DNA of 64,000 bases from Pseudanabaena sp. PCC 7367. Lineage in GTDB: Bacteria > Cyanobacteriota > Cyanobacteriia > Pseudanabaenales > Pseudanabaenaceae. Positions within the stretch are counted from its first letter, which is position 1, and each line of letters opens with the position of its first letter. The stretch is from the NCBI RefSeq assembly GCF_000317065.1, contig NC_019690.1, positions 1-64,000 on the forward strand. Reading direction: 5' to 3'. The notes beneath the pieces were generated by a model, which was given only the letters and a program-made list of their open reading frames with translations, did not search any database and was not told the DNA's origin. The position numbers were made by a program, and so were the translations under genes. Positions 38,850 through 62,290 of the stretch are shown here, one piece after another.

Positions 38850-40538
38850 GTGTCAGGTCAATATATAAAACAATATCAAGTGCAAGTGTACAAGAAAGCA
38901 CGAGAGGTCGGCTGCAATCAAAATGAGTCAGCCGAGATTGCCGGCATATCAGTCCGTAGCGGCAGCCGTATTGAGCAAGGCAAACACCAGCCCAAGAGTA
39001 AAGGTGAGCGAGATTGGCGCACCCGCCGAGATCCGCTATCAGGAGTGTGGGAGGAAGAGCTAGAGCCAATGCTTCGACGTGAGCCTCGTCTAGAGGCGAT
39101 GACATTGTATGAATATCTAGCCGAGCATTATCCAGGCCAATATGAGCAACAATTGCGTACCTTACAAAGGCGAGTGCAGGTATGGAAAAGTATCCATGGC
39201 AAACCGCAGGAGGTAATGTTTGAGATCCGCCATCAGCCCGGCGAAATGGGTCTATCAGATTTTACCGAGCTCAAACAGGTGGAAGTTACCATCAAAGGGA
39301 AACAATATGAGCACCTGCTGTACCACTACCGTCTGGCCTACAGTGGCTGGCAATATGTGCAGGTAATCGAGGGTGGCGAGAGCTTTATCGGCTTGTCTGA
39401 AGGATTACAGAATGCGCTGCATGCCTGTGGTGGTGTACCAAAGCAGCATCGCACCGATAATTTGAGTGCTGCCTATCGGAATATGGCGGGCAAACGGCAT
39501 AAACCACTAACCCAATTCTATGCCGAGCTATGTGAACACTATGGCATGAGTCCAAGTCGCAATAACCCAGGCGTGGCTCATGAAAATGGCTCCATCGAAT
39601 CTCCCCATGGACATTTCAAGCGCCGGTTGCGCCAAGCTCTGTATTTGCGTGGCAGCTTTGAGTTTGAGTCAGTGAGTGCATATCAAGAATTTATCGAGCA
39701 GGTGGTTGCCAAGCTCAATTGTAAATGCAGCGCCAAGTTTGCCGAGGAAAAAGTAACCCTACAACCACTACCGAGATATCGCTGTGCCGATTACGAAGAA
39801 TTGACGGTGCGGGTGACCTGCCACAGCACCATTTCGGTGCGCTGCATTCTTTACACGGTGCCATCAAGACTGATTGGCAGGCAGCTGAATATTCATATCT
39901 ATCACAACCGCCTGGTCGGTTATTTGGGGCAGCAACAAGTGGTGGAACTACCCCGTTTGCGAGTACATGGGTCAGCCAAAATCCGCCGTGCTCGCTGTAT
40001 TAACTACCGCCATGTAATTGATAGCCTCAGGCGTAAACCCCGTGCCTTTATTTACTGCACCTGGCAGCAAGACCTATTGCCTAATCAACAATGGCGGCAG
40101 CTGTGGCAGAGGTTACAGGCTGATTTTGAAATCGATAATGCAGCGCGCATCATGGTTGAAGCCCTCTATATTGCTGCCAAGCACGATAGAGAAACTACAG
40201 TGGCCGACTATCTTGAAACCCAACTGCAGCAGGGCACTCTCAGCCTGAAGGCTCTACAGCAACAGTTCCTACTACCCCAGCAGCAATTGAGCGTACCTCA
40301 ACTAAACGTACAACAACATTCGCTTTCAGCCTATGACCAACTCCTCGAAACCAAACCCGAACAATACTCTGAGCCTGATACTCAAACAGCTACGACTCTC
40401 GCACATGCTCCAACATTGGCAGACTATCGAGCAGAAGGCCACCCAACAGCATTGGGCTTACGACCGGTTCTTGCTCGCTCTGTGCGAATTGGAACTGGAT
40501 TATCGCCAACAGAATCGGATCAAACGAGCTCTCGCTGA
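38850..40538 (+). CDS. istA: IS21 transposase IstA (copy 1)
   Basis: The 562-residue DDE transposase has an N-terminal helix-turn-helix (ESAEIAGISVRSGSRIEQGK), a catalytic core with Asp137 (LSDFTEL), Asp203 (HRTDNLSAAY) and Glu250 (ENGSIESPHG), and a C-terminal beta-barrel-like part. It cuts and joins the element ends together with IstB. The istB start lies 206 bp inside this gene in another frame, a longer overlap than the few bases usual for IS21. The whole reading frame is intact. Confidence 0.93.
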   Translation: MSGQYIKQYQVQVYKKAREVGCNQNESAEIAGISVRSGSRIEQGKHQPKSKGERDWRTRRDPLSGVWEEELEPMLRREPRLEAMTLYEYLAEHYPGQYEQQLRTLQRRVQVWKSIHGKPQEVMFEIRHQPGEMGLSDFTELKQVEVTIKGKQYEHLLYHYRLAYSGWQYVQVIEGGESFIGLSEGLQNALHACGGVPKQHRTDNLSAAYRNMAGKRHKPLTQFYAELCEHYGMSPSRNNPGVAHENGSIESPHGHFKRRLRQALYLRGSFEFESVSAYQEFIEQVVAKLNCKCSAKFAEEKVTLQPLPRYRCADYEELTVRVTCHSTISVRCILYTVPSRLIGRQLNIHIYHNRLVGYLGQQQVVELPRLRVHGSAKIRRARCINYRHVIDSLRRKPRAFIYCTWQQDLLPNQQWRQLWQRLQADFEIDNAARIMVEALYIAAKHDRETTVADYLETQLQQGTLSLKALQQQFLLPQQQLSVPQLNVQQHSLSAYDQLLETKPEQYSEPDTQTATTLAHAPTLADYRAEGHPTALGLRPVLARSVRIGTGLSPTESDQTSSR

Positions 40539-41103
40539 GGCTAAATTACCTACTGGTAAAAGCTTTACCTCTTTCGATTTTGAACATTGCCCTAGTTTCA
40601 AATCAGCGCCACTGATCCAACTGGCACAAGATACGGCCTGGTTGGATAGGGCCGAAAACTGCTTGCTATTTGGACCTTCCGGGGTCGGTAAAACTCATCT
40701 TGCTGCTGCGCTCGGGCGCTCGATGATTGAAATGGGCAAACGGGTTAAGTTCTTCTCGGCCTATGCTTTGCTACAACATCTACAGCAAGCCAAACTACAA
40801 CTTCAGCTTGCCTCTATCCTTGCCAAACTTGACCGCTTTGATTTACTCATTATTGATGATCTTGGCTATGTCAAAAAATCTGAGGCTGAAACTTCCGTCC
40901 TGTTTGAGCTGATTGCTCATCGTTATGAACGCAAAAGCCTCATCATTACTGCTAATCAGCCTTTCTCGCAATGGGATCACATCTTTGCCGATGACATGAT
41001 GACTGTTGCTGCCGTTGACCGCCTCATTCATCATGCTCTCATTGTTGAAATTCATGCTGATAGTTTCCGTAAACGCAACGCTGTTGAGCGCTCGCAAAAA
41101 TAA
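40333..41103 (+). CDS. istB: IS21 helper ATPase IstB (copy 1)
   Basis: The 256-residue AAA+ ATPase has Walker A GPSGVGKTHLA (about residues 114-124), Walker B LLIIDDLGY (about 174-182) and the conserved KSLIITANQPFSQWD segment. It selects target DNA and activates IstA. The start at 40333 keeps the usual N-terminal helical domain (LKQLRLSHMLQHWQTIEQKA), so it overlaps istA by 206 bp. It is intact. Confidence 0.92.
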   Translation: MTNSSKPNPNNTLSLILKQLRLSHMLQHWQTIEQKATQQHWAYDRFLLALCELELDYRQQNRIKRALAEAKLPTGKSFTSFDFEHCPSFKSAPLIQLAQDTAWLDRAENCLLFGPSGVGKTHLAAALGRSMIEMGKRVKFFSAYALLQHLQQAKLQLQLASILAKLDRFDLLIIDDLGYVKKSEAETSVLFELIAHRYERKSLIITANQPFSQWDHIFADDMMTVAAVDRLIHHALIVEIHADSFRKRNAVERSQK

Positions 41104-41255: not shown

Positions 41256-41582
41256 ATGGGGGACTCCAGAAAAAGGCTCAAAGAGTTTCCTAAGGATGTT
41301 CAGGTCACCATGGGCGGTGCATTGATGATTGCCCAGTATGGGGGCATGGCTGATAATGTTAAGCCACTCAAAGGTTTTGGCAGTGGTGTATTTGAGATTG
41401 TCGATCGCTATGACAAAAATGCTTATCGGTTGGTCTATGCCGTCCAAATTGGTGAGCAGATATATGTTTTACATGCTTTTCAGAAAAAGTCAAAGCAAGG
41501 CATATCAACGCCAAAAGCAGATTTGGATCTGATTAAACGCCGTTACAAGGATGCACAGGAGGCCGCAAAACATGACCGTTGA
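41256..41582 (+). CDS. HigB-like RelE-superfamily toxin, 5' end displaced by IS21
   Basis: The 108-residue frame belongs to the phage Gp49-like/HigB toxin family: GDSRKRLKEFPKDVQ, then ALMIAQYGG, the strand pair VFEIVDRYDKNAYRLVYAVQIGEQIYVLHAFQKKSKQG and the closing ISTPKADLDLIKRRYKDA. These toxins are ribosome-dependent mRNA interferases. IS21 copy 1 lies directly before its ATG and has cut off the first six residues, the native promoter and ribosome site. Translation may restart at the in-frame Met7. The antitoxin gene overlaps the end by 11 bp, in toxin-first order as in higBA. Confidence 0.85.
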   Translation: MGDSRKRLKEFPKDVQVTMGGALMIAQYGGMADNVKPLKGFGSGVFEIVDRYDKNAYRLVYAVQIGEQIYVLHAFQKKSKQGISTPKADLDLIKRRYKDAQEAAKHDR

Positions 41583-41889
41583 TTATGAAACCAGCAGTGG
41601 CAATGTTTTTGCCGATCTTGGCCTCGATAATGCCGATGAGTTGTTCATCCGTGCTCAGCTTGGAATTCAGGTGTTTAAAATTATCCGCGAGCGTAATCTC
41701 ACCCAGAAAGATGCTGCAGAGCTCCTGGGCATTAAACAGCCTGAGGTTTCAGCAATTATGTGTGGCAAATTCGATCGCTTTAGCCAGGAAAGACTTATTG
41801 GCTTTCTAAACCGGTTAGAGCAGAAAGTAGTAATCCAAGTCAGCCCGCATCTAGAGGGGGAACCTTATCAACATGTTGCCATCTCGTAA
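41572..41889 (+). CDS. HigA-like XRE antitoxin
   Basis: The ATG at 41572 has AGGAGG about 9 bases upstream, inside the toxin gene. The 105-residue product has SSGNVFADLGL at the N-terminus, typical of antitoxins of this pair, and an XRE helix-turn-helix (LTQKDAAELLGIKQPEVSAIMCGKF, about 48-73). It should neutralise the toxin and repress the operon; a palindrome at 38617-38632 beyond the IS is the likely operator. With the promoter now separated by 2.6 kb, expression must come from elsewhere, perhaps from IS21. Confidence 0.88.
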   Translation: MTVDYETSSGNVFADLGLDNADELFIRAQLGIQVFKIIRERNLTQKDAAELLGIKQPEVSAIMCGKFDRFSQERLIGFLNRLEQKVVIQVSPHLEGEPYQHVAIS

Positions 41890-44165: not shown

Positions 44166-44250
44166 ATTGATGCCTTTGTTGACAACGGGCAATGGAGGTT
44201 GGTGGTCAGTGGTTAGATCGAATGGGTTTATCTAAATATTGGTCGAGACT

Positions 44251-45480
44251 ATGTTTAGCTGCCTAGACTTGTTTGCTGGTTGTGGTGGTATGGCATTGGG
44301 TTTAAAGCGTTCTGGCTTTGACCATGCTTGCTTAGTTGAGATTGATCGCCAAGCTGCCCAAACCCTCAGAGCCAATTTCGACCCAGCCACGATCGTTGAA
44401 GCCGATATCATCAAACTGAATAGGGAAGGGTACTTTGCTCAATTCAGGGGGCAGATCGATCTACTCTCTGCTGGCCCACCATGTCAATCTTTCAGCTATG
44501 CTGGCAATCAAAGGGGGCTTGATGATAGTCGGGGGCAACTTGTCTATGAAACTCTCAAGACTATCGAGCAAGTGCAACCCAAGATGGTCTTAATCGAAAA
44601 TGTGAAGCACTTATCTACGATCAACAGTGGCAAGGTGTTGAAGGCTATTTTAGGCAGGCTCCATTCACTCCGATATAGAACCCAATGGCAGATCTTGAAT
44701 GCTAATGATTATGGTGTGGCTCAAAACCGGCAACGTTTAATCATTCTGGCTACTAGAAAGGGTTGGCGGATCAAGCTTAGGTATCCTGCCAAATATGCAT
44801 ATAAACCGGTATTGAGGGATGCTTTGCACGGCTGTCCAGCCAGTGATGGTGCTCAATATTCGACTGAGAAAGCAAAAGTGCTTGATTTAGTGCCACCGGG
44901 TGGCTGCTGGCAAGCTCTACCTGGTGATATCCAGAAGCAATATATGGGTAAGAGCTTTGATGCTGAGGGTGGCAAGAGAGGTATGGCCAGGCGCTTAGCT
45001 TGGCATGAACCATCTCTGACGCTGCTTTGCTCGCCTGCGCAAAAGCAAACGGAGCGATGCCATCCTGATTACACCAGACCTTTGACGGTCAGGGAGTATG
45101 CCAGAATCCAGGGGTTTCCTGATAGTTTTGTGTTTACTGGATCTGTGTGTTCTAGGTACAGGCAGATTGGTAATGCGGTACCGGTTGATTTAGCAGAAGC
45201 GATCGGTAAGAGCATTATCAGTGCAATCACAGGCATAGAATGCAAATACTGCCATTCAAAGCATGTGCTCCATAATGGTCGTCGCCGTGGCAAGCAAAAT
45301 TATCATTGCCAGGATTGCGATCGCCAATTCATCGATTCTTATTCACCCAATGGTTATACCGATGAAGTGAAGCAGCAATGTCTGCATCTTTATGCTAAGG
45401 GTATGGGTTTTCGGGCGATCGAACGGCTTACTGGCGTGGGTCACAATAGCATCATCAACTGGGTTAAAAAGCTGGGGTAG
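44251..45480 (+). CDS. Cytosine-5 DNA methyltransferase fused to an IS1 InsA-like domain
   Basis: From ATG 44251 the protein has 409 residues. Residues 1-325 are a complete m5C methyltransferase: motif I DLFAGCGG, motif IV GPPCQSFS with catalytic Cys78, motif VI IENVKHL, motif VIII QNRQRL, a short target-recognition region, and motif X GNAVP. Residues 331-409 are an IS1 InsA-like module: a zinc ribbon (Cys331, Cys334, Cys353, Cys356), then GYTDEVKQQCLHLYAKGMGFRAIERLTGV and the helix HNSIINWVKKLG. In IS1 that module recognises the transposon ends. No restriction enzyme is adjacent. The fusion is in one uninterrupted frame. The tail may add sequence targeting, or be a scar of an old IS1 insertion. 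Confidence 0.9.
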   Translation: MFSCLDLFAGCGGMALGLKRSGFDHACLVEIDRQAAQTLRANFDPATIVEADIIKLNREGYFAQFRGQIDLLSAGPPCQSFSYAGNQRGLDDSRGQLVYETLKTIEQVQPKMVLIENVKHLSTINSGKVLKAILGRLHSLRYRTQWQILNANDYGVAQNRQRLIILATRKGWRIKLRYPAKYAYKPVLRDALHGCPASDGAQYSTEKAKVLDLVPPGGCWQALPGDIQKQYMGKSFDAEGGKRGMARRLAWHEPSLTLLCSPAQKQTERCHPDYTRPLTVREYARIQGFPDSFVFTGSVCSRYRQIGNAVPVDLAEAIGKSIISAITGIECKYCHSKHVLHNGRRRGKQNYHCQDCDRQFIDSYSPNGYTDEVKQQCLHLYAKGMGFRAIERLTGVGHNSIINWVKKLG

Positions 45481-45531
45481 GGAGTGTTATTTTTCCGCTT
45501 TCCATCCCGCATTTGTGCAGTGTCAATAGAG

Positions 45532-45552
45532 GCAATCTTCAAATCAGATTGC
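45532..45552. other. Inverted repeat next to the group II intron
   Basis: GCAATCT (45532-45538) and AGATTGC (45546-45552) form a perfect 7+7+7 hairpin in the exon about 30 bp past the intron 3' end. It may be part of the insertion-site context. Confidence 0.5.
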
Positions 45553-45582
45553 TGGCATGTTAGCTGGGTAGCTCATGAGGTC

Positions 45583-47941
45583 GTTAAACTCAGCAGGGCA
45601 GTCACCCACCCTGCTGGTCTGCAAAACCGCGCATGAAAGTTTGCCCTTCACGCGGCTCCTCAACAGCCTGGTGCTTGTCATACACATCTCGCATGAATCT
45701 GGTGGTGGCAATGTCGATGTATTAGAGCCAGATTATCTTGCCTGTAATTGTTTTGGTTTTTATCCATATGGTGGACTTCCATAAGATCATCTGGTAGGAA
45801 GTACAGTCCGCAATGTTTGCATCGTCCCACCTGGCTTTTCAACAATCTTGCAACAGTTGGTTTTACCATTGGGTAATGCCCTACTCTTTGGCTCCAGTAG
45901 CTCCAATCACCGTCAAAAGGACTTCGACTTCCTTTTACCTTAACGTGACGTTTAATCGACGTTTGTGTATGTTTGAATAACCGGATTGAATCCGGTTCAT
46001 TCCGGGAAGCAAAGACCCAACCTTCTCTGGTGCCAATAAGCCAATACTTATGAGCAATCCATTGCCGGCTTTTATGAGAGTGACGGCGACGTGCCCAAGC
46101 CCAAAGTTTGAGGTAAACCAATCTATCCATCGAAGTGTAAGTTGTCGTGCTACAGACATTTGAGTAATAGTTAGCCCAGCCCCGAATAATCGGGTTTAAG
46201 TGGTCGATTAGGTCAGCTTGAGATACTGCCCTATGGCTTTTGACTAATGCTCGGATACGACGATAGTGCCTGGCTTGAGCCTCCCGGCTTGGTTTAATGA
46301 TGGTTTTGAAACCTTGCTTAGAGTGAGTTTTACCCACCAGGTATTGGCGTACCTCATACCCTAGAAAATCAAACCCTACCCGTCCCTCGTAAAGAACTAA
46401 GGTGTGAGTGATTCTGGTTTTGCTAGGTTTCAACTCCAAACCCATACCACTTAGCCATTCTGAGAGAAACTGTTGACTGGTTTGCACCACAGCAAGGTCT
46501 TTGTGTATAACCACCAGATCATCAGCATAACGAACAAGCTTGGGGCATTGATCGCTTGGGAATGCTTTCTGGATAGCTACTTCCATGCCGTGGAGTGCTA
46601 CATTTGCCAACAATGGTGAGAGCACCGATCCTTGAGCAGCTCCAGTAGGAGTTGCCTGGAATTGGCCTCCATCCATCACACCAGCCTTTAACCAGGCTCG
46701 AATTTGTCGAGTTAGACTGGGACTGGTGTTGAGTTTCTCACACAGAGCTTGATGATTAATTCTGTCAAAGCATTTGGCCACGTCTGTTTCCAGTACATAT
46801 TTAGGCTGTTGCTTAATTGACAGAAAAATCGCCCCGATCGCATCGCGGCATGAGCGTCCTGGCCTAAATCCATATGAGTTAGGCTCAAACTTTGCCTCCC
46901 ATTCTGGTTCAAGTGCCTGTTTGACTAGCGCTTGTAGGGCGCGGTCGTACATGGTGGGTATAGATAGCGGCCTTTGTTCAGCGCTACCAGGTTTGGGTAT
47001 CCAAACCCGTCGGCTGGGAGCCGCCTTGTCTCCAAGTTGGAGGCAACCCACCAAAGCCAATCTAGCTGATGGTGAGAGAGATGCCAGACCATCAATGCCT
47101 GCCGTCTTCTTACCCCAGTTATCTTGAGTGACTCGTCGTACCGCCAAACATTTGGCATACCAGGACTTCATCATTAATCGCTGGAGTTTACGAACTGCCT
47201 TAACATCGCCACGCAGCGAGGCTTGGTAGATGCGCCTTTGCAACTTGAAAACCTTCCGGGTTAGCTTGCGCCAAGGGATTGTTTTCCATTCATACGTAGT
47301 CGTTAACTCGCTCATGACTTGTTAATTGCTACTAGTGCCTTTACCTGCCAGACTGTCGTGCCTCTGTCAGCCTATCCTCTAGCTTTCCTAGAGGCATTTG
47401 CTTTTGAGGCAATCCTACCCACCTGTTGCTTGCGGTTGACTCCCTACTCAAGCGATCGACCGGCGCTTGAGAGCAAACAGGTAGGTTACTTCGTTCCTAG
47501 TTTCCGTTTGACGCTGAACTTAGGTTCCCACTCTCCGCCGGGTTTATGGAGGATACTTTCAGGTCAGTACCGTAGCTGCCTGACTCAATTGCCTTTCCCA
47601 TTTTGGGCAAGCCATACCTCTGGATAGAGGATTAGACCCGCGTTGGCTTGTTTCCACTAACGACGGTTCAAGCGTAGATTCACAAATGTTAACCATATTC
47701 AGCTATGCTCGACGGGGTTCCCAGTCGGGCTCTGAGTTACCGCCTTCTCTCCCATGCTTACTATAATTGGTTGTCACCCCAATCATAGTGGGAGATGCTT
47801 CACTCCTGTATCAAGGAGGAATGGAATCTCACCATCACAGAAACTAAGTTGTCAAGGTTCGGTTGAGATCTCTCTCGTCTTTTTAACCTTGCCAGCCGTC
47901 CCCAGGTAAACTTACCTGTTTAGGCTGAACGAGTCGCACAC
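45583..47941 (-). mobile_element. Group II intron with intron-encoded protein
   Basis: On the minus strand the intron begins GTGTGCGACTCG at 47941, fitting the GUGYG consensus. It ends near 45583 with a domain VI-like hairpin (CAGCAGGG...CCCTGCTG) and then AC. Domain V is recognisable at 45624-45658: GAGCCGCGTGAAG...CATGCGCGGTT. The open reading frame lies inside domain IV (45678-47315). The element is about 2.36 kb and looks complete. It sits in the non-coding gap after the methyltransferase gene, on the opposite strand, so it interrupts no obvious gene. Confidence 0.85.
45678..47315 (-). CDS. Group II intron reverse transcriptase/maturase with HNH nuclease
   Basis: The 545-residue protein has reverse transcriptase blocks RRVWIPKPGSAEQRPLSIPT, FRPGRSCRDAI, LETDVAKCFDRI, GAAQGSVLSPLLAN and VRYADDLVV, where the YADD aspartates bind metal. 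A maturase X domain follows (INPIIRGWANYYSNV region, about 360-400), then a C-terminal HNH nuclease with two Cys-x2-Cys-like pairs and EVHHMDKNQNNYRQDNL. It helps splicing and drives retrohoming. The QGSVLSP block marks it as group II type, not a diversity-generating or retron enzyme. All domains are intact. Confidence 0.93.
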   Translation of the reverse strand: MSELTTTYEWKTIPWRKLTRKVFKLQRRIYQASLRGDVKAVRKLQRLMMKSWYAKCLAVRRVTQDNWGKKTAGIDGLASLSPSARLALVGCLQLGDKAAPSRRVWIPKPGSAEQRPLSIPTMYDRALQALVKQALEPEWEAKFEPNSYGFRPGRSCRDAIGAIFLSIKQQPKYVLETDVAKCFDRINHQALCEKLNTSPSLTRQIRAWLKAGVMDGGQFQATPTGAAQGSVLSPLLANVALHGMEVAIQKAFPSDQCPKLVRYADDLVVIHKDLAVVQTSQQFLSEWLSGMGLELKPSKTRITHTLVLYEGRVGFDFLGYEVRQYLVGKTHSKQGFKTIIKPSREAQARHYRRIRALVKSHRAVSQADLIDHLNPIIRGWANYYSNVCSTTTYTSMDRLVYLKLWAWARRRHSHKSRQWIAHKYWLIGTREGWVFASRNEPDSIRLFKHTQTSIKRHVKVKGSRSPFDGDWSYWSQRVGHYPMVKPTVARLLKSQVGRCKHCGLYFLPDDLMEVHHMDKNQNNYRQDNLALIHRHCHHQIHARCV

Positions 47942-48555: not shown

Positions 48556-51500
48556 ATGAATATCAATGCCGAAGGGTTGCAGGCCAGCACGTCTTCATTG
48601 CTTGGCTATGGAGAAGCTTTAGATCCAATCTTTGATCATCCTCTGGATTCATCAGCGATCGCCAGTCGTAGTATCACCGATCCACCATCTATATCACTTC
48701 AATCAGATGGCAGTGGTGCTGAAACAGTAATTGGCATATTCAGTGAAGGGGAATGGACTCTCTCTACTCAGGTTTTAAATCCATCATCAACGGTCTTTAA
48801 CTCTGGTAGCGATTCGGTTGCTATTAGTTCAGATAGTGACCCACTCATTGGTGCAGTACCTTCGCCAACGGCAGCGATCGCTGGTACTCAGTTCTCAATC
48901 CTGGCAGAAGGGATTGTCACGATCAACGGAGGTGGCGACTTTGATGGTGTTCCTACTGACCCTGGTGATGATGCCCTAATCTATGCGGGGGATGGGTTTA
49001 ATTTCAATAATGTACCGATCCTGCCTGTAGAAAGGGATGCCCAGGGTAATCCTATCCTGGATGGCCAGGGGAATGAAGTTCTTGTACCCAATGCAGTGGT
49101 GGTGGCTCCTGGATTTACCACTGCTAATGCGCCTAATAATCCCTACAGTGGTTTGATTCCACCAACTGTGGTGAGTGAGCAGATCTTGGATATTCCTGCT
49201 TTTGCTGAGATCCGAGCTCAAGAATTAGACGATCGGATTGCACCAGGTACGACCCCGATCGCATTCAATCCGAATCAAAACCCGATCAACAATGCCAACA
49301 ATTGGAATAATAACTTTCCCTCTGGGGGAACAGCCGCTAATCCTATCGTCGTAGAAGTAACCAGTGGGATTAATATCCCTAATGGCGTGACGATCGAGAA
49401 TACGGTAATCATTGTCAATAATGGCTCGGTTAACTTCAATGGCAATGGTCATACGCTCAACAATGTGGCGATCGTTGTTAATAATGGCGGGATTAATCTG
49501 GGCAATGTGCAGGCAAACGATAGCGCAATTCTGGCTTCCCAATCGATCAACATGAATAATGGAACTAGGTTTGGTGGTCAGAGTCTAGTAGCGACGGGTA
49601 GTCAAAATAGCATTAACTTCAATGGCGCTACTACTACCACTGGTGACAATGACTTTTTAAAGGTAATTGCCCAAGGTGATATTACCTTCAATGGTGCTGC
49701 GAATACCCGAGGTGAATTCCTCAGTGGTGGCAACTTCACTTTCAATGGTAATTCGGAGTTAATTGGTGGCATCGGTGCAAAGCAGAATATCACCTTCAAT
49801 GGTGGTGCCACTGTGACAGCGGCAGATACCAATGCTCCTGACATTACTAGCGATCTGGCTAATGACACGGCGATTGGTGGTACAAATGGTGATGGGATTA
49901 CTTCTGATCCAGCGATTACTGGCACAGTCACTGATGCCAATAATATAACTGGGTTCGTAGCTGGATTGAATGATACGCCGATTGCTAGCTATGTTGATAT
50001 TCTCGCTGAGTTGCAAGTTGATGGCAGTTTTAACCTTTCACAAACTGTCCTAGAGCAGATTAATGGTGGGCCTTTGGCGGATGGTGTGTATGTATTGCAT
50101 CTGCAGGCAACCGATGAGTTTGGGAATGTCTCGGATAGCTTTGATATTAACTTTACCCTTGATACTACGGCTCCAGCAGCACCAACGATTGGTTTAGATC
50201 CAGCCTTTGATACGGAGCCAGTGGGAGATGGGCAGACTACGTTAGACTTGGTGACGCTTACTGGCCAGAGTGAGCCGAATAGTCAGATTGAGATTGTGCA
50301 AACTGGGCAAACGGCGATCGCTGATGCCAGTGGTCTCTTCTCGATCTCCAATGTTGCTCTGGCATTAGGTGCTAATCAGTTTGATATTAAGGCGATCGAT
50401 GTGGCGGGTAATGAGGTCACAATCACTGAGTCTTTCACTCGTCTGGATAATACTCCATCAGTGTCGTTTGATACGGCTTCCTTTAGTGCCACAGAAGAGG
50501 CAACGGCTACGGATGTGGTAATTCCAATTACGCTCAGTGATACACCGACGGCTGATATTACGGTGCCGATTACGGTTGATGGCACGGCGATCGCTGGTGC
50601 TAATGATGACTTTACGATTTCAGATAGTTCAATCACTTTCACCGCTGGTGCCACTGGTACGGATTTAACTCAGAATGTCACGGTCACGATTAACCCGGAT
50701 GATATTCCTGAGCCCGATGAAACGGTCATTCTTGGTTTTGGTACTTTGCCTGCTGGGGTGGAGTTGGGCAGTATTGATGCCAGCACGGTGACGATCGCGG
50801 CGAATGATGCGATTCAGGGTGATACGTTGACGGTGCTGCCGGGGGCTAGCGTAGAGGTGGAGCTGAGCGATATTCTCACTACTGCGGTTAGCTTCAGCTT
50901 GCAGGATGCGGATGGTTTACCTACCGGTGAGTTGGAAGGGGATGGCACGCTAATCTTCAATCCCACTCCAGATCAGATTGGGACTTATCAATTCACAGCG
51001 GTAGGGATTGACCAGAATGGACAGGAATTTACCCAGAACTATACGCTCAATGTAGTTGCAGATCCTATAACTACTACTCGTATTTCTGGCACGATCCTCA
51101 ATACCGATGAAGATGCTTTAGCCGGTTTACCAATTGAGCTTGGTGGTATTCAAACAATTACTGACAGCAATGGTGAATTTACGATCGAAGTGAGTGGACC
51201 ATTACCCAGTGATACATTACGGGTATTGGGGCAGGATTTTGATGATGGAAGTGGCGATGAATATCCCTTCATTGCAGAGAAACTAGAGCTTGTTTTAGAG
51301 CATGATCCCTACATTGGCTTTAATAATATAATCGATCGGCCGATCTACCTACCGGTATTGGATACCTCCAATGCAGTTCCTATTATCCCTGGTTCTGGTA
51401 CCGATGTGACTACAGACAATATACCTGGAGCATCAGTATTTGTCGCTGCAGATTCAATTGTAGATCAAGAGGGAAATCCCTTTAATGGGTCACTAAGTAT

Positions 51501-54500
51501 TACAGAAGTACCACGGGATCTAACTCCTGCCGCACTGCCTGAGGATCTTATCCCGGATGTGGTAGTCACTATCCAACCAGGGGAGATGAATTTCACTACT
51601 CCTGCCCCCCTAACCTTGCCTAACCGAGCTGGTTATGAGGAGGGCACGGAAATGACACTATGGTCGATCAATCCAATTACTGGCGAGTTCGATGATGTGG
51701 GGGTTGGGATTGTTCAACCTGGTGATGAAGGCTCTGGTAGCGTTATTACTACTGTAAGCGGAGGTATTCGCAACAGTAGCTGGCACTTCTTGGTTCCAAG
51801 ACCACCACTACCAGCTCCACCAGCTCCACCACAAGGACCAGGAGGGGTTGGTACACCAGGTAATCCGGCACTTGCTCAAGATGATGAGGCAAACTGTGGT
51901 GATGCCCAAGATTGCTCTAGAGCTAGCCAGCCTTTTACTCCGGAGGTACAGTTGTATTCTGGGGCAACAATTGAAAGACACAATCTGCCAACCTATCAAT
52001 CCCTAGGCCAGGCAAGAGGTGTATCGCTAGTTTATGACTCAGTTCGGGCTGACCCACGTCCAATCGTCAACTTTGGTTATGAAGATGTCATTCGTGGCAG
52101 TAGTCAGTACCAAAGATTAGTTGCTGATCTAACAATCAAGCAAGGAGATTTTGAGTATCAAGTCCCTGGCATAGCTGATGGAGATTTTGGTCTGGATGGT
52201 GGACAGCATTTTTGGGATTTTCAAACTGGTGACGCTGTGAGTGCTGGTTTACAGGCAGATTTGAGTTCTTTATCCTCTGGCCGCTACGAATTTGAAATGA
52301 GCACTGGACTCCTATGGTCAGATGATCCTGTTAATAATGGTTTTAGTGGTTCCACATCCACCCAAACTGGCAGTTTAATCAACGTTAATCTTATAGATAG
52401 TCCATTTGGTAGTGGATGGGGAATGGCAGGCCTACAAGAGCTAGTTATCAACCCAGATGAATCTGTCCTACTAATAGATGGTGGTAGCGGTGAGCTATTA
52501 TTTGAAGGGCCTGATATCTTCGGCGAGTCATATGTATCACCTCCAGGAGATTTTTCTACTCTGGTGCAGCTACCTGATGGAACCTTCCAGCGCACCATGA
52601 AAGACCAAACCGTTTATACATTTAATCCAGATAATAAGCTGGCAAGCATGGTGGATCGCAATGGAAATGCGACTAACTATACATACAACGGTTTGGGCTT
52701 ATTGGATAAGATGATAGATCCAGTTGGTCTTGAAACTACTTTTACCTATGATGCTAATAACAAAGTTTCCACCATTGAAGATCCATCTGGGCGTTCTACA
52801 ACACTGGAATACGATGCTGATGGCAATCTAACCAAAATCATCGATCCCGATAGTACCGAACGGTCATGGGATTATGACGATAGACATCATATAATCGCTG
52901 AGACTGATAAGCGCAATAATCGAGAGGAGACCTACTATAACTTTGCCGGTCGTGCTGATTATGCGATTACCAAAGACAATGAAAGGATAGAAGTTGAGCC
53001 TTTTCAATCCCGTGTACTAGCAGATCCCACCCAAACTGTAGATGCGCTGAATGCTCCTATAGCATCTTCTCTTGGAACAATTGAAGCTACTTATACGGAT
53101 GCTAACGGCAACACTATGACAGCTTTTCTTGATCGCAGGGGGCAAATTGTGTCTGGTTTTGATCAGGAAGGTAATTTGCCATCCATTATCAGAGATGAAG
53201 ATACTAATCTGGTCTCAATGGAGATCGATGCTAGAGGAAATATCAATGAGTATGAATACGATGCTAATGGCAATCCAATTACGATCGTAGATAGTTCTAC
53301 TGGCTATATAGGCGAAGATTATTTCCCAAGTTCTAAGCGTTTTGAGACTGAGAAAGTATCAGATATAGCCACTGGTGATTTCAACAAGGATAGTGTACTC
53401 GATATTGTTACGACAAATACTGACGGTACAAGCCCAGGCTCTGTATCTGTATTCATCAGTAATGGGAATGGAGGATTTGAAAGTAAAACTGATTTTGGCG
53501 CAGGTGGTTCTAATCCATTTCTAGCAGAATCTGCAGTTGTTGATCTAAACGGAGATGGGAATCTCGATCTTGTTACTCCCTCCTCTGGGGGTATAAAGCT
53601 ACTCTTAGGAGACGGTACCGGTAGCCTTGGCACTCCTACAAATATTCCTGTAGCAGGGACAACAAGCTACTTCCCTACTCTCACTGGCGACTTTGATAAT
53701 GATAATGATGTAGATATTTTTACGTTTTATGCAGGTACAGGTGCTTTAGGAGCAATTTTACTTAATGATGGCAGTGGTAATTTCACTACTCAAGAAATTG
53801 CGAAATCTACACCAGCTAACTTCTCAATCGTTACTAAGGCCGCATTAGGTGACATCAATAATGATGGTAATTTAGATCTGGTTTTCACCCCAAACACGAG
53901 TGATGGCAATAAGCTCTATGTACGTTTAGGTAACGGAAGCGGTGGATTTAACGGCGCAAGTACGTTTAATTTCGGGGAGATTCGCCCTGGTAGAAGTCTC
54001 AAGTTTGGCGATTTCAATAATGATGGCGCTTTAGACGTTATTACAAATAGTGGCCCAACTTTTAGTACCGCTAGTGAGTTAACGGTTATCTTAGGAAATG
54101 GTAATGGTGGTTTTACCAATGCCATATCATACACACCTCAAGACTTTAACCTTAACTCATCTGGTAATTTCGATATTGGTGACATAAATTATGATGGTAA
54201 CTTGGATGTAGTTACTCCAACATCAAATTTGGATGATTTGGCATTGGTGTTAGGAAATGGAGATGGAAGCTTTTCAGATTCTCTTATTCGTCCAACCAGT
54301 TTGACCAGAATCAATAACAATGGGACTGTTATACTATCCGATTTAAATGGTGATTCTGTACTTGATATAGTTGCTGTTGAAGGAGCACCTGATCAGAATG
54401 GTGCTGTTTTGCTAGGCGCTGGCTTAGATGGGCTTCGTGCTCTAGGTGGAGAAAGTGGAATTACATATGATTCCACTTTCAGTAGGCAAACTAGCTACAC

Positions 54501-57500
54501 TGATGAACTGGGGCGACAAACCCTATACGATATTGATCCTAATAATGGAAATATGCGTTCCATGACGCGTGTGGTTAGTGGTGGTGATGACGTAGTAACT
54601 ACCTACACATATACTAGCCAAGGTCAGACCGATACCATGACTGACTCATTGGGAAGAGTTACTGACTATGACTATGATAATTTTGGGAATCTAATTAAAA
54701 TCACCTATGCCCAGGGTACTCCCGATGAAGCATTCGAAATGTTTGAATATGACGCTGCGGGTAATCAGACTGCCATGATCGATGAGAATGGCAATCGTAC
54801 TGAGTACGAGTATGATTCGCTGAATCGTTTAATCGAAATTACTTCAGCAGATCCCGATGGCACAGGGCCCCTATCTTCTCCTGTAACCACATTTACCTAT
54901 GATGCGAATGGGAATCAGCGAACCATAACCGATCCCTTAGGTCGCTTAACCACTAGTGATTACGATGATATGGATCGCCTAATTAGATTGAATGATCCTG
55001 ATCCCGATGGTGCAGGGCCATTACCTTCTCCTGAAACTATATATGGTTATGATAGCCATGGAAATCAGACTTCTCTTATCGATCCACTTAACCGGGAGAC
55101 CAGATTCGTTTATGACGATCGTAACAGAGTGATCGAGACGATTCTTCCTGATGGTGTGATTGAAAGGCAAGAATATGACGCAGATAATAATGTCATAGCT
55201 AGAATTGATGGTAATGATCATAGAACCGAAATGGTCTATGATCTCGAAGATCGGCCCATTTTAGAACGCGATCCCCTTGGCAATGAAACCAGATATGTAT
55301 ATGACGAAACAAGCCAATTGATAGCGCAAATTGACGCTAATGGCAATCGTACTGAGTTCAGCTATGACGATCGAGGAAGGCAAGTTTCTACTAAAGATGC
55401 CGAAGGGAATATCTTCTTCACTGACTATAATGATGTGGGCAATGTAATTTCTGAAAGAGATCCACTAGGCCAAATAACTACCTATGAATATGACAACCGC
55501 AATCGCACTGTTAGGGTAATTGACCCAATCAACGGCATTACTATTACAACCTATGATGATGCTAGCAACGTCACATCAATTACTGACCCTGAAGGCAATA
55601 CAACCTCATATGATTATGATGGCCTTAATCGATTGGTAACGGAAACTAATCAGTTAGGCAATAGCAAGACGCATGAGTACGATCCTGTTGGTAATAGAAT
55701 ACGCTCTACTGATCGCAACGATAGAGTGCGTGAGTTTACCTTTGATGATTTAAACCGCATGACTGCAGAAGTTTGGCTGGATAGTGCAGCTACGCCAATT
55801 CGAACCGCAGTATTTGCTTATGACGCAGCCGATCAATTAACCAGCACTAGCGATCCAGATTCCACCTATACCTACACCTATGATCTAAGAGGTCGTCTTG
55901 ATACCTCTAGTAATGCTGGTACTTCTGGTTCCCCAACAGTCATTATGAATTATGACTATGATAATGCTAGCAATCTTATTCGGGTGGAAGACTCTATTAA
56001 CGGGGTACAAGCAGGGGTTACTAACTACTCTTATGATGCTGCAAATCGTCTCCTCAATATTCGACAAAGCGGTAATGGTGTAGAAAATAAGCGGGTCGAA
56101 TACACTTACGATGCGGTCGGCCAGGCAGAGAGTATTAAGCGTTATTCAGATATTATTGGATCTCAACTGGTTGCTGAAACAGCCCATACCTATGATGAGC
56201 TTAATCGGCTTGAGAACATTTCTCATTCTGGCGCTGCAATGGCTTTGACCTATGACTTTACATACGATGACAATGGGCGTTTGACGAGGATTGATAACAG
56301 CATTGATGGCAGCAGCGATTTTAATTACGATGATGATGATCAGCTAACTGCTGCGGATTATTCATTCCAAGCCGATGAAAATTATTCCTATGACCAGAAT
56401 GGCAATCGCACTAATGCAGGCTACCAAACTGGAGATAATAATCGATTAGAAAGTGATGGTACCTATGATTATGCATATGACAATGAAGGTAATCTGATTA
56501 GCAAAACTGATCAGATCTCTGGAGAGGTAACCGAGTACACCTGGGATTATCGCAATCGCTTAACTGGAGTGGTTGTGAAAGACAGCAGTAACAATATTAT
56601 TCAGCAAAGTGACTACACTTATGATGTGTACGACCTGCGCATTGGCAAATCTGTGGACTCTGATGGAGCAGGTGCAGCACCTGCCGCTGTTACGCGCTTT
56701 ATCTATGGGATGAATGACAATATTGCCCTGGAGTTTGATGGTGGTGGCACTCAAACTAATCGTTATCTTTACAGTCTGGGTGTCGATCAATTCCTAGCGG
56801 ATGAGCAGCAGGCTGAAGGACGGGTGCTTTGGGCGCTGACTGATCATGTTGGTACTGTAAGAGATTTGATCGATTCTACTGGAACACAGCAAAATCATAT
56901 TACCTATGATAGTTTTGGTGGATTAACCAGCCAGACTGATGCATCTGTTACCACGCGTTTTGGCTTCACTGGTCGTGAATTAGATTCTGAAACTGGTTTA
57001 CACTATTATCGTGCTAGATATTTTGATTCTAATAATGGGCGCTTCATTAGTGAAGATCCGCTTGGCTACACAGCTGGTGATGCGAATCTATATCGTTACG
57101 TATTTAACAATCCCGCCATTTCAGTAGATCCGTCAGGTTTAGAAGCACTTATATATATACATAAAAATGGTAATTTTGTGGGACATGTCTCATTAGATGT
57201 AAATGGGACTGTATACACTTATGGCAGATTCGGTGAACAACCCAAAGCAGCTAGCGCTGGTATCGGAGGTGATGGTTATCTTTATAAAGTGCCTCGAGAA
57301 GAATACTTTAGACGTATTGGTAGTGGAGGGAATTTCGTGGGATCACACGATACTGTAGAGCAATGGGAACTACCTCTAACTGCATCCCAAGAGCAAGATG
57401 CCCAAAGCTACCTTGACGATCTCTACGACCAAGGCACAAATGAACGTCAGGTAGAAGATAAGCCACACATAAAGGGTAGAAGAGTAAGAGATTATAGTAT

Positions 57501-57789
57501 CTTTACTGAAAGTTGTGTAACTATAACTATGGAAGCATTACCAGATGGCCCCCTTAAAGATGCTCTAAGGGGTCGAAATCGTACTTATGGAGGAATTGTT
57601 TTTCACCCTAATGATGTATCAGATGCTTTACGTGTTGTCCCAGGAATTAAGAGATTACCAGACAATCGTCCAGAACCTTCATCTATCGGATTAACAGAAA
57701 ATGATCCAAGAAGACGTTTAAGGATCAATGCAGCTGATAGGCAGAGAGAACAGATATTACAAAATGGCGCAATTCGTCCTACACCATAA
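48556..57789 (+). CDS. Giant RHS/YD-repeat protein with candidate papain-fold toxin C-terminus
   Basis: The 3,077-residue protein has no obvious signal peptide. Order: an Asn/Gly-rich N-terminal region with beta-helix-like repeats (about 230-430), Ig-like modules (about 430-630), a Calx-beta domain (about 630-755), linkers, then the RHS shell from about 1128 (PEVQLYSGATIERHNL). An FG-GAP/VCBS insert sits at about 1593-1960 (repeated DFNNDGxLDVV-like calcium loops), YD repeats at about 1975-2810, and the RHS core YRARYFDSNNGRFISEDPLGY at about 2817. The last ~212 residues form a separate domain with His2877 in GHVSLDVNG and Cys2987 in FTESCVTITMEAL. The His-before-Cys order suggests a permuted NlpC/P60-LRAT-like fold. 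This is a polymorphic-toxin architecture. Confidence 0.88.
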   Translation: MNINAEGLQASTSSLLGYGEALDPIFDHPLDSSAIASRSITDPPSISLQSDGSGAETVIGIFSEGEWTLSTQVLNPSSTVFNSGSDSVAISSDSDPLIGAVPSPTAAIAGTQFSILAEGIVTINGGGDFDGVPTDPGDDALIYAGDGFNFNNVPILPVERDAQGNPILDGQGNEVLVPNAVVVAPGFTTANAPNNPYSGLIPPTVVSEQILDIPAFAEIRAQELDDRIAPGTTPIAFNPNQNPINNANNWNNNFPSGGTAANPIVVEVTSGINIPNGVTIENTVIIVNNGSVNFNGNGHTLNNVAIVVNNGGINLGNVQANDSAILASQSINMNNGTRFGGQSLVATGSQNSINFNGATTTTGDNDFLKVIAQGDITFNGAANTRGEFLSGGNFTFNGNSELIGGIGAKQNITFNGGATVTAADTNAPDITSDLANDTAIGGTNGDGITSDPAITGTVTDANNITGFVAGLNDTPIASYVDILAELQVDGSFNLSQTVLEQINGGPLADGVYVLHLQATDEFGNVSDSFDINFTLDTTAPAAPTIGLDPAFDTEPVGDGQTTLDLVTLTGQSEPNSQIEIVQTGQTAIADASGLFSISNVALALGANQFDIKAIDVAGNEVTITESFTRLDNTPSVSFDTASFSATEEATATDVVIPITLSDTPTADITVPITVDGTAIAGANDDFTISDSSITFTAGATGTDLTQNVTVTINPDDIPEPDETVILGFGTLPAGVELGSIDASTVTIAANDAIQGDTLTVLPGASVEVELSDILTTAVSFSLQDADGLPTGELEGDGTLIFNPTPDQIGTYQFTAVGIDQNGQEFTQNYTLNVVADPITTTRISGTILNTDEDALAGLPIELGGIQTITDSNGEFTIEVSGPLPSDTLRVLGQDFDDGSGDEYPFIAEKLELVLEHDPYIGFNNIIDRPIYLPVLDTSNAVPIIPGSGTDVTTDNIPGASVFVAADSIVDQEGNPFNGSLSITEVPRDLTPAALPEDLIPDVVVTIQPGEMNFTTPAPLTLPNRAGYEEGTEMTLWSINPITGEFDDVGVGIVQPGDEGSGSVITTVSGGIRNSSWHFLVPRPPLPAPPAPPQGPGGVGTPGNPALAQDDEANCGDAQDCSRASQPFTPEVQLYSGATIERHNLPTYQSLGQARGVSLVYDSVRADPRPIVNFGYEDVIRGSSQYQRLVADLTIKQGDFEYQVPGIADGDFGLDGGQHFWDFQTGDAVSAGLQADLSSLSSGRYEFEMSTGLLWSDDPVNNGFSGSTSTQTGSLINVNLIDSPFGSGWGMAGLQELVINPDESVLLIDGGSGELLFEGPDIFGESYVSPPGDFSTLVQLPDGTFQRTMKDQTVYTFNPDNKLASMVDRNGNATNYTYNGLGLLDKMIDPVGLETTFTYDANNKVSTIEDPSGRSTTLEYDADGNLTKIIDPDSTERSWDYDDRHHIIAETDKRNNREETYYNFAGRADYAITKDNERIEVEPFQSRVLADPTQTVDALNAPIASSLGTIEATYTDANGNTMTAFLDRRGQIVSGFDQEGNLPSIIRDEDTNLVSMEIDARGNINEYEYDANGNPITIVDSSTGYIGEDYFPSSKRFETEKVSDIATGDFNKDSVLDIVTTNTDGTSPGSVSVFISNGNGGFESKTDFGAGGSNPFLAESAVVDLNGDGNLDLVTPSSGGIKLLLGDGTGSLGTPTNIPVAGTTSYFPTLTGDFDNDNDVDIFTFYAGTGALGAILLNDGSGNFTTQEIAKSTPANFSIVTKAALGDINNDGNLDLVFTPNTSDGNKLYVRLGNGSGGFNGASTFNFGEIRPGRSLKFGDFNNDGALDVITNSGPTFSTASELTVILGNGNGGFTNAISYTPQDFNLNSSGNFDIGDINYDGNLDVVTPTSNLDDLALVLGNGDGSFSDSLIRPTSLTRINNNGTVILSDLNGDSVLDIVAVEGAPDQNGAVLLGAGLDGLRALGGESGITYDSTFSRQTSYTDELGRQTLYDIDPNNGNMRSMTRVVSGGDDVVTTYTYTSQGQTDTMTDSLGRVTDYDYDNFGNLIKITYAQGTPDEAFEMFEYDAAGNQTAMIDENGNRTEYEYDSLNRLIEITSADPDGTGPLSSPVTTFTYDANGNQRTITDPLGRLTTSDYDDMDRLIRLNDPDPDGAGPLPSPETIYGYDSHGNQTSLIDPLNRETRFVYDDRNRVIETILPDGVIERQEYDADNNVIARIDGNDHRTEMVYDLEDRPILERDPLGNETRYVYDETSQLIAQIDANGNRTEFSYDDRGRQVSTKDAEGNIFFTDYNDVGNVISERDPLGQITTYEYDNRNRTVRVIDPINGITITTYDDASNVTSITDPEGNTTSYDYDGLNRLVTETNQLGNSKTHEYDPVGNRIRSTDRNDRVREFTFDDLNRMTAEVWLDSAATPIRTAVFAYDAADQLTSTSDPDSTYTYTYDLRGRLDTSSNAGTSGSPTVIMNYDYDNASNLIRVEDSINGVQAGVTNYSYDAANRLLNIRQSGNGVENKRVEYTYDAVGQAESIKRYSDIIGSQLVAETAHTYDELNRLENISHSGAAMALTYDFTYDDNGRLTRIDNSIDGSSDFNYDDDDQLTAADYSFQADENYSYDQNGNRTNAGYQTGDNNRLESDGTYDYAYDNEGNLISKTDQISGEVTEYTWDYRNRLTGVVVKDSSNNIIQQSDYTYDVYDLRIGKSVDSDGAGAAPAAVTRFIYGMNDNIALEFDGGGTQTNRYLYSLGVDQFLADEQQAEGRVLWALTDHVGTVRDLIDSTGTQQNHITYDSFGGLTSQTDASVTTRFGFTGRELDSETGLHYYRARYFDSNNGRFISEDPLGYTAGDANLYRYVFNNPAISVDPSGLEALIYIHKNGNFVGHVSLDVNGTVYTYGRFGEQPKAASAGIGGDGYLYKVPREEYFRRIGSGGNFVGSHDTVEQWELPLTASQEQDAQSYLDDLYDQGTNERQVEDKPHIKGRRVRDYSIFTESCVTITMEALPDGPLKDALRGRNRTYGGIVFHPNDVSDALRVVPGIKRLPDNRPEPSSIGLTENDPRRRLRINAADRQREQILQNGAIRPTP

Positions 57790-60036: not shown

Positions 60037-61725
60037 GTGTCAGGTCAATATATAAAACAATATCAAGTGCAAGTGTACAAGAAAGCACGAGAGGTCGGCT
60101 GCAATCAAAATGAGTCAGCCGAGATTGCCGGCATATCAGTCCGTAGCGGCAGCCGTATTGAGCAAGGCAAACACCAGCCCAAGAGTAAAGGTGAGCGAGA
60201 TTGGCGCACCCGCCGAGATCCGCTATCAGGAGTGTGGGAGGAAGAGCTAGAGCCAATGCTTCGACGTGAGCCTCGTCTAGAGGCGATGACATTGTATGAA
60301 TATCTAGCCGAGCATTATCCAGGCCAATATGAGCAACAATTGCGTACCTTACAAAGGCGAGTGCAGGTATGGAAAAGTATCCATGGCAAACCGCAGGAGG
60401 TAATGTTTGAGATCCGCCATCAGCCCGGCGAAATGGGTCTATCAGATTTTACCGAGCTCAAACAGGTGGAAGTTACCATCAAAGGGAAACAATATGAGCA
60501 CCTGCTGTACCACTACCGTCTGGCCTACAGTGGCTGGCAATATGTGCAGGTAATCGAGGGTGGCGAGAGCTTTATCGGCTTGTCTGAAGGATTACAGAAT
60601 GCGCTGCATGCCTGTGGTGGTGTACCAAAGCAGCATCGCACCGATAATTTGAGTGCTGCCTATCGGAATATGGCGGGCAAACGGCATAAACCACTAACCC
60701 AATTCTATGCCGAGCTATGTGAACACTATGGCATGAGTCCAAGTCGCAATAACCCAGGCGTGGCTCATGAAAATGGCTCCATCGAATCTCCCCATGGACA
60801 TTTCAAGCGCCGGTTGCGCCAAGCTCTGTATTTGCGTGGCAGCTTTGAGTTTGAGTCAGTGAGTGCATATCAAGAATTTATCGAGCAGGTGGTTGCCAAG
60901 CTCAATTGTAAATGCAGCGCCAAGTTTGCCGAGGAAAAAGTAACCCTACAACCACTACCGAGATATCGCTGTGCCGATTACGAAGAATTGACGGTGCGGG
61001 TGACCTGCCACAGCACCATTTCGGTGCGCTGCATTCTTTACACGGTGCCATCAAGACTGATTGGCAGGCAGCTGAATATTCATATCTATCACAACCGCCT
61101 GGTCGGTTATTTGGGGCAGCAACAAGTGGTGGAACTACCCCGTTTGCGAGTACATGGGTCAGCCAAAATCCGCCGTGCTCGCTGTATTAACTACCGCCAT
61201 GTAATTGATAGCCTCAGGCGTAAACCCCGTGCCTTTATTTACTGCACCTGGCAGCAAGACCTATTGCCTAATCAACAATGGCGGCAGCTGTGGCAGAGGT
61301 TACAGGCTGATTTTGAAATCGATAATGCAGCGCGCATCATGGTTGAAGCCCTCTATATTGCTGCCAAGCACGATAGAGAAACTACAGTGGCCGACTATCT
61401 TGAAACCCAACTGCAGCAGGGCACTCTCAGCCTGAAGGCTCTACAGCAACAGTTCCTACTACCCCAGCAGCAATTGAGCGTACCTCAACTAAACGTACAA
61501 CAACATTCGCTTTCAGCCTATGACCAACTCCTCGAAACCAAACCCGAACAATACTCTGAGCCTGATACTCAAACAGCTACGACTCTCGCACATGCTCCAA
61601 CATTGGCAGACTATCGAGCAGAAGGCCACCCAACAGCATTGGGCTTACGACCGGTTCTTGCTCGCTCTGTGCGAATTGGAACTGGATTATCGCCAACAGA
61701 ATCGGATCAAACGAGCTCTCGCTGA
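60037..61725 (+). CDS. istA: IS21 transposase IstA (copy 2)
   Basis: The 562-residue protein is identical to the copy-1 IstA and has the same DDE residues (Asp137, Asp203, Glu250). It is intact, so either copy could supply transposase to both elements. It overlaps istB by 206 bp. Confidence 0.93.
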   Translation: MSGQYIKQYQVQVYKKAREVGCNQNESAEIAGISVRSGSRIEQGKHQPKSKGERDWRTRRDPLSGVWEEELEPMLRREPRLEAMTLYEYLAEHYPGQYEQQLRTLQRRVQVWKSIHGKPQEVMFEIRHQPGEMGLSDFTELKQVEVTIKGKQYEHLLYHYRLAYSGWQYVQVIEGGESFIGLSEGLQNALHACGGVPKQHRTDNLSAAYRNMAGKRHKPLTQFYAELCEHYGMSPSRNNPGVAHENGSIESPHGHFKRRLRQALYLRGSFEFESVSAYQEFIEQVVAKLNCKCSAKFAEEKVTLQPLPRYRCADYEELTVRVTCHSTISVRCILYTVPSRLIGRQLNIHIYHNRLVGYLGQQQVVELPRLRVHGSAKIRRARCINYRHVIDSLRRKPRAFIYCTWQQDLLPNQQWRQLWQRLQADFEIDNAARIMVEALYIAAKHDRETTVADYLETQLQQGTLSLKALQQQFLLPQQQLSVPQLNVQQHSLSAYDQLLETKPEQYSEPDTQTATTLAHAPTLADYRAEGHPTALGLRPVLARSVRIGTGLSPTESDQTSSR

Positions 61726-62290
61726 GGCTAAATTACCTACTGGTAAAAGCTTTACCTCTTTCGATTTTGAACATTGCCCTAGTTTCAAATCAGCGCCACT
61801 GATCCAACTGGCACAAGATACGGCCTGGTTGGATAGGGCCGAAAACTGCTTGCTATTTGGACCTTCCGGGGTCGGTAAAACTCATCTTGCTGCTGCGCTC
61901 GGGCGCTCGATGATTGAAATGGGCAAACGGGTTAAGTTCTTCTCGGCCTATGCTTTGCTACAACATCTACAGCAAGCCAAACTACAACTTCAGCTTGCCT
62001 CTATCCTTGCCAAACTTGACCGCTTTGATTTACTCATTATTGATGATCTTGGCTATGTCAAAAAATCTGAGGCTGAAACTTCCGTCCTGTTTGAGCTGAT
62101 TGCTCATCGTTATGAACGCAAAAGCCTCATCATTACTGCTAATCAGCCTTTCTCGCAATGGGATCACATCTTTGCCGATGACATGATGACTGTTGCTGCC
62201 GTTGACCGCCTCATTCATCATGCTCTCATTGTTGAAATTCATGCTGATAGTTTCCGTAAACGCAACGCTGTTGAGCGCTCGCAAAAATAA
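61520..62290 (+). CDS. istB: IS21 helper ATPase IstB (copy 2)
   Basis: Identical to the copy-1 IstB, with intact Walker A (GPSGVGKT) and Walker B (LLIIDDLGY). It works with IstA in target capture. Confidence 0.92.
   Translation: MTNSSKPNPNNTLSLILKQLRLSHMLQHWQTIEQKATQQHWAYDRFLLALCELELDYRQQNRIKRALAEAKLPTGKSFTSFDFEHCPSFKSAPLIQLAQDTAWLDRAENCLLFGPSGVGKTHLAAALGRSMIEMGKRVKFFSAYALLQHLQQAKLQLQLASILAKLDRFDLLIIDDLGYVKKSEAETSVLFELIAHRYERKSLIITANQPFSQWDHIFADDMMTVAAVDRLIHHALIVEIHADSFRKRNAVERSQK

Follow-up and report, generated by a model that had tools for sequence, protein, structure and literature searches.

A plasmid-borne C5-cytosine DNA methyltransferase with an IS1 InsA-like C-terminal tail in Pseudanabaena sp. 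PCC 7367

Introduction

Fusions of a host gene with the DNA-binding domain of a transposase are well known in animals; to our knowledge, clear bacterial fusions with selection still acting on the transposase module are rarer. Among bacterial restriction enzymes, endonucleases of the Eco47II, TdeIII and EcoO109I families recognise GGNCC or RGGNCCY.

IS1 InsA and M.SsoII are among the closest described systems to the gene reported here. In Escherichia coli, InsA requires both its zinc finger and its helix-turn-helix (HTH) to bind the ends of IS1 and represses through such binding; InsA by itself binds these ends and represses transcription (PMC12428005). In M.SsoII, a C5 methyltransferase carries a regulator domain at its N terminus, and binding of this domain to a regulatory site alters both transcription and methylation (PMC6100179).

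Here we describe a methyltransferase joined to an InsA-like module in Pseudanabaena sp. PCC 7367. It lies in a 64,000-nucleotide stretch of DNA (the window, NC_019690.1 positions 1 to 64,000), which is the start of the second replicon, a 328,634-bp plasmid (contig C1) accompanying a 4.56-Mb chromosome. The fusion is real, selected and lineage-restricted.

Results

Anatomy of the fused gene

The plus-strand frame at 44251–45480 runs uninterrupted from ATG to TAG and encodes one protein of 409 amino acids, with the following features:

44251..45480, plus strand: fused gene, C5-cytosine methyltransferase with IS1 InsA-like tail; 409 aa; alternative TTG start at 44239
44254..45219, plus strand: C5 methyltransferase domain, residues 2–323; PF00145 in a profile search, E 3.7e-81; core model pLDDT mostly >90
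44272–44289, 44473–44496 and 44596–44604, plus strand: C5 motifs I, IV and VI, read from the translation
44722–44736, 45076–45123 and 45169–45183, plus strand: C5 motifs VIII, IX and X, read from the translation
44782..45066, plus strand: target-recognition region, about residues 178–272, of GGNCC clade type (MARRLAW..PSLTLLCSPAQKQTERCHP), from alignment with methyltransferases partnered by Eco47II, TdeIII or EcoO109I
45235..45477, plus strand: InsA-like tail, residues 329–409, starting exactly at InsA codon 1 (ATG to ATA)
45241..45318, plus strand: zinc ribbon with Cys331, Cys334, Cys353 and Cys356, kept in full-length IS1 relatives; a three-strand ribbon in the models
45361..45474, plus strand: helix-turn-helix, helices 371–382, 387–394 and 398–408; AlphaFold2 (pLDDT mostly 81–92) and tail-only model
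45503..45524, plus strand: probable IS1 right-end remnant, CATCCCGCATTTGTGCAGTGTC compared with CATCCTTCATTTGTGCAACGCC in free related IS1

The core is a C5-cytosine DNA methyltransferase of the PF00145/dcm type: TIGR00675 (dcm) also matched, over residues 5–322 (E 1e-68), and motifs I, IV (PCQ), VI (ENV), VIII (QxRxR), IX and X were all found in order, as FAGCGG, GPPCQ, ENV, QNRQR, RPLTVREYARIQGFPD and GNAVP. In the tail, residues 331–408 matched positions 1–79 of NF033558, the IS1 transposase model (E 4e-25); the match stays under the cut-off set for the whole protein, as the tail corresponds to the N-terminal third alone. NF050000, the zinc domain of IS1/IS1595, matched over its cut-off. 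The tail thus has the make-up of IS1 InsA, a four-Cys zinc ribbon and then an HTH, from InsA codon 1. A sequence-only reading of this DNA had proposed a full m5C motif set running in one frame into a zinc-ribbon/HTH module, and the PF00145, NF033558 and NF050000 matches agree with that anatomy. Its description of the tail as complete held for the InsA-like part and not for an IS1 transposase as a whole, of which the DDE half is absent.

AlphaFold2 modelling of the full protein gave a methyltransferase fold, then a three-stranded ribbon, then a three-helix HTH (mean pLDDT 86.8; ribbon 55–74), and a model of the tail alone also produced ribbon and HTH. Solved structures matching the whole model best included M.HaeIII, M.HhaI and DNMT1. 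When the tail fold alone was searched against the PDB, only weak matches were returned, serine-recombinase and paired-domain HTHs among them, and none reached E <= 0.001.

A second copy on the same plasmid

A second intact fused gene lies on the opposite strand of the same plasmid (C1:112748-113974) and is 92% identical across all 409 residues, with its stop codon at the identical position. Together with the E-values, this copy excludes a chance fusion. Features of the surroundings are:

44242..45562, plus strand: segment repeated gap-free at 91.3% identity; counterpart at C1 about 112.7–114.0 kb, minus strand
45583..47315, minus strand: group II intron with reverse transcriptase/maturase; domain V at 45583–45660 (RF00029), reading frame at 45678–47315 (PF00078, PF08388)
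48556..57789, plus strand: RHS/FG-GAP-like gene, 3,077 aa, co-duplicated and downstream of both fused genes

Similarity between the copies starts at 44242, and no shared upstream site or operator was seen. The RHS/FG-GAP-like proteins beside the two copies are 66–73% identical over their first 2,473 residues. We considered that this gene might have decayed beside copy 2 and so serve as an internal control, and rejected the idea, as it is open there too in the stretch read. The group II intron sits between the fused gene and the RHS-like gene in the window copy only and is absent from copy 2; its HNH match is near threshold.

Other mobile and accessory genes were observed nearby. IstA/IstB-like (IS21-type) pairs at 38850–41103 and 60037–62290 (plus strand), with apparently identical proteins, flank the fused-gene region, and the DNA between them could behave as a composite element. 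At 41256–41889 (plus strand), genes for a Gp49-like (HigB-type) protein and then an HTH protein probably make up a toxin–antitoxin pair of the plasmid.

Origin of the tail from IS1

The tail matches IS1 models and starts at InsA codon 1, which bears out the IS1 origin first suggested for it. Where free IS1 elements of this family begin InsA with ATG AAA/CAA TGC, the fusion reads ATA GAA TGC, immediately past the point where the methyltransferase core naturally ends. No match to the DDE catalytic half or InsB was found at the fused locus. The probable right-end remnant starts 22 bp past the stop codon and matches at 17 of 22 bases (24 points; shuffle p 0.0015), a score unique among 2,556 half-overlapping 100-bp segments of the window; elsewhere on the plasmid there are weaker 15-bp right-end matches with up to 3 mismatches. 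The remnant follows both copies, which have 6 differences in the first 49 bp past the stop. An IS1 left end was not recognisable at the locus (p 0.91), and no target-site duplication was identified there. What marks an IS1 element, a DDE domain with two terminal inverted repeats, is not present.

As judged from these sequences, the arrangement is best explained by IS1 insertion followed by internal deletion, because the fusion runs from InsA codon 1, the DDE half is gone and a probable right end follows the stop. On this well-supported account, an IS1 would have landed in the methyltransferase gene at its 3' end; loss of that gene's own stop would have let the frame continue into InsA from its first codon; an internal deletion would then have taken out the DDE half, leaving the right end just past the new stop; and the gene, with its giant RHS-like neighbour, would have duplicated on the plasmid, both copies being retained. 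Of free IS1 of the same kind, the chromosome holds one decayed element, matching at 66% over 64 module residues and broken in frame. A distant IS1-like element is present in at least 12 copies in the genome and is about 28–33% related in the module.

The tail under selection

Comparison of the two plasmid copies gave a dN/dS of 0.114 for the tail and 0.116 for the core (dS 0.19 and 0.31, respectively); the estimate is from a single paralogue pair in one genome with 13 tail differences. These comprise 9 synonymous and 4 non-synonymous changes (p 4e-4 versus neutrality), and when neutral drift was simulated with 13 changes and transition bias, four or fewer amino-acid changes without a stop arose in 0.07–0.33% of runs. 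The tail is 51–66% identical to InsA of free IS1, with a matching HTH signature. Both copies keep all four Cys, as do the aligned free IS1 relatives of full length; the alignment of the frame-broken chromosomal relic reaches only the last two of the four.

The low tail dN/dS, its rarity in simulation and the matching Cys/HTH signature together indicate that, ever since the duplication, the tail has been retained in the form of a folded module. Loss of the four Cys and break-up of the tail had been raised as grounds for doubt; the Cys are conserved, and the tail is intact in the diverged second copy. Since purifying selection on the tail equals that on the catalytic core, the tail is probably not a mere scar.

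Distribution of the fusion

Using tblastn and HMM searches, we found no second genome with the two-domain order among 38 family genomes; the family search brought up no other species of the genus. Neither did the fusion appear in partly overlapping samples of the phylum (386 genomes) and the class (390 genomes), nor in a scan of GTDB contigs, nor in plasmids, phages and IMG/VR viral contigs; matches in all these sets covered the core or the tail alone. The sequence-only reading had looked to independent genomes with the same domain order; across all these sets there are none, and the fusion is found in one strain only, which that reading had listed as counting against its proposal. Two apparent hits were rejected: a Psychrobacter plasmid match (H1) seemingly reaching the tail was a chance extension through stop codons, and match H41 extends into a neighbouring gene.

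Clade and predicted target of the core

The nearest relatives of the core, at 48–53% identity, are in cyanobacteria, plasmids and viral contigs. They neighbour Eco47II-family endonucleases (PF09553), and other clade members adjoin TdeIII- or EcoO109I-family enzymes. In the tree, the two fused copies grouped together (100/100) on a long stem nested with moderate support in this clade, and their position among endonuclease-neighbouring methyltransferases places them in the GGNCC (Eco47II/Sau96I-type) clade. Because the relatives' partner endonucleases recognise GGNCC or RGGNCCY, GGNCC is the predicted target of the core. The branch of the fused pair is 1.29 changes per site long and may reflect altered specificity. 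Most cyanobacterial relatives have an N-terminal HTH-like segment (as read from the sequences rather than by a profile match), which the fusion does not have.

Several GGNCC-clade methyltransferases adjoin members of an unassigned family of about 250–260 aa (L010:443-1228, L045:2315-3073 on the minus strand, and similar frames beside L052, L056 and L058). It had no match to any Pfam or NCBIfam endonuclease model and is a candidate new restriction endonuclease family.

GGNCC avoidance and the restriction–modification inventory

In samples of the host plasmid and chromosome, GGWCC and GGSCC ranked lowest among 32 gapped 5-bp palindromes (observed/expected 0.13–0.16 and 0.30–0.37, respectively), with CCWGG near 1; GGNCC was avoided most where it lay within RGGNCCY. 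Avoiding GGWCC is common among cyanobacteria, also those without this enzyme, so GGSCC is the more telling signal. GGSCC was lower in genomes carrying this methyltransferase clade (Mann–Whitney p 0.004; genomes with >= 15 expected sites, host counted once), in a small, non-phylogenetic comparison of 20–80-kb samples.

Apart from the two fused genes, the host genome contains no PF00145 gene, and any m5C in it should therefore be due to them. This fits the published account of Pseudanabaena PCC 7367 as having many HIP1 sites without a CGATCG methyltransferase (PMC4390886).

As first read, no cognate restriction enzyme adjoins the fused gene. Nor did we find PF09553 or PF09520 endonucleases, or relatives of the L045-type neighbour family, in the host genome; a Type II restriction–modification system, which would need a cognate endonuclease next to the methyltransferase or one from the clade's families elsewhere in the genome, was not recovered. 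The chromosome carries an intact PF14511 (EcoO109I-family) endonuclease (C2:1945929-1946495) whose gene overlaps the end of a PF01555 N4/N6 methyltransferase gene (the pair at L202:8986-10687, C2 about 1,944,986–1,946,687). From this gene order the pair looks like self-contained restriction–modification, and this system could itself be behind the GGNCC avoidance. With that endonuclease having its own overlapping methyltransferase, and with no PF09553 or PF09520 enzyme, the fused methyltransferase looks solitary.

Discussion

Taken as a whole, the locus is best explained as a solitary plasmid methyltransferase of the GGNCC m5C clade with a domesticated IS1 InsA DNA-binding module, an account that we consider fairly probable. 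The core would methylate GGNCC, shielding plasmid and cell from the GGNCC-type restriction common in cyanobacteria. The tail would add a second DNA-binding site, giving higher DNA affinity, or autoregulation through binding near its own gene, where an IS1 end remnant persists. By analogy with InsA binding and the M.SsoII precedent, and with the N-terminal HTH-like segment of the relatives missing from the fusion, such a second site (for general affinity or autoregulation) is the most likely role of the tail. That a transposon end-recognition module was exapted as a functional second DNA-binding domain that changes where or when methylation occurs, a natural targeted methyltransferase made by transposition, is a possibility to which we give a fairly low probability.

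A tolerated scar is a rival reading. The fusion is in a single lineage, the core is complete without the tail and close relatives work tail-less, and an extension left by IS1 insertion and deletion, with no DNA-binding role, might be conserved only since a misfolded tail would harm the methyltransferase. Yet the tail's dN/dS of 0.114 is as low as the core's, both copies stop at the same position, and the zinc-ribbon/HTH pattern with all its four Cys persists, at 51–66% match to free IS1 InsA; these make the scar, also put forward in the sequence-only reading, a rather doubtful account. Autoregulation, a specific form of the domesticated-module explanation, would have the tail bind regulatory DNA close to the gene, perhaps the remnant at 45503–45524, in the manner of M.SsoII (PMC6100179). 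InsA repression does act through IS1 ends (PMC12428005), a remnant end with few changes in its surroundings (6 in the first 49 bp past the stop) follows both copies, and the fusion lacks the N-terminal HTH-like segment of most cyanobacterial relatives; but the remnant lies downstream, away from the promoter, and the copies, whose similarity starts at 44242, have no upstream site in common. We regard this specific form as unlikely.

Two further readings are much less probable. The fused methyltransferases might guard against the chromosomal EcoO109I-family endonuclease in a split restriction–modification system, making the plasmid indispensable: the PF14511 gene at C2:1945929-1946495 is intact, genome-wide GGNCC avoidance peaks at RGGNCCY and the genome has no other C5 methyltransferase. 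We hold this to be improbable because that endonuclease has its own adjacent methyltransferase, with which its gene overlaps, and looks self-sufficient. It had also been proposed that the tail steers methylation to IS1-type ends, linking it with transposon control. The tail is indeed homologous to the IS1 end-binding module; however, the only cognate IS1 recovered from the genome is one decayed chromosomal relic, with no intact element among the matches, the other IS1-like copies are only about 28–33% related in the module, and the predicted GGNCC target is set by the core, which leaves this proposal unsupported and highly improbable.

As the recipient of a transposase module, a DNA methyltransferase lends itself readily to testing. 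If the tail changes target choice, the fusion would be the natural equivalent of methyltransferases engineered for targeting.

Among known systems, the Eco47II-partnered GGNCC methyltransferases (PF09553; Sau96I/Eco47II type) resemble the fusion in target-recognition region and motifs, at about 48–52% identity over residues 2–326. Unlike them, it has neither an adjacent endonuclease nor that endonuclease family in its genome; it is without the N-terminal HTH-like segment, ends in an InsA-like tail at its C terminus and has a long branch in the tree. The N-terminal module of IS1 InsA/InsAB' (NF033558, NF050000) aligns with residues 329–409 from codon 1 through the HTH and shares the four Cys and the pattern KQN..C..C.RQF..Y...GY, at 51–66% identity; in contrast to the IS1 family, the fusion has no DDE catalytic half and no recognised left end, and is joined to an enzyme of other function. 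The orphan CGATCG (HIP1) methyltransferases are likewise solitary m5C enzymes in cyanobacteria, but these are conserved across many cyanobacteria and have a different target (PMC4390886). M.SsoII likewise combines a C5 methyltransferase with a DNA-binding domain capable of regulation (PMC6100179), a role that is putative for the fusion. The M.SsoII regulator domain is N-terminal, C-protein-like and part of a restriction–modification operon, whereas that of the solitary fusion is C-terminal, follows a zinc ribbon and is transposon-derived; if the tail autoregulates, it would represent a second route to the M.SsoII type of architecture.
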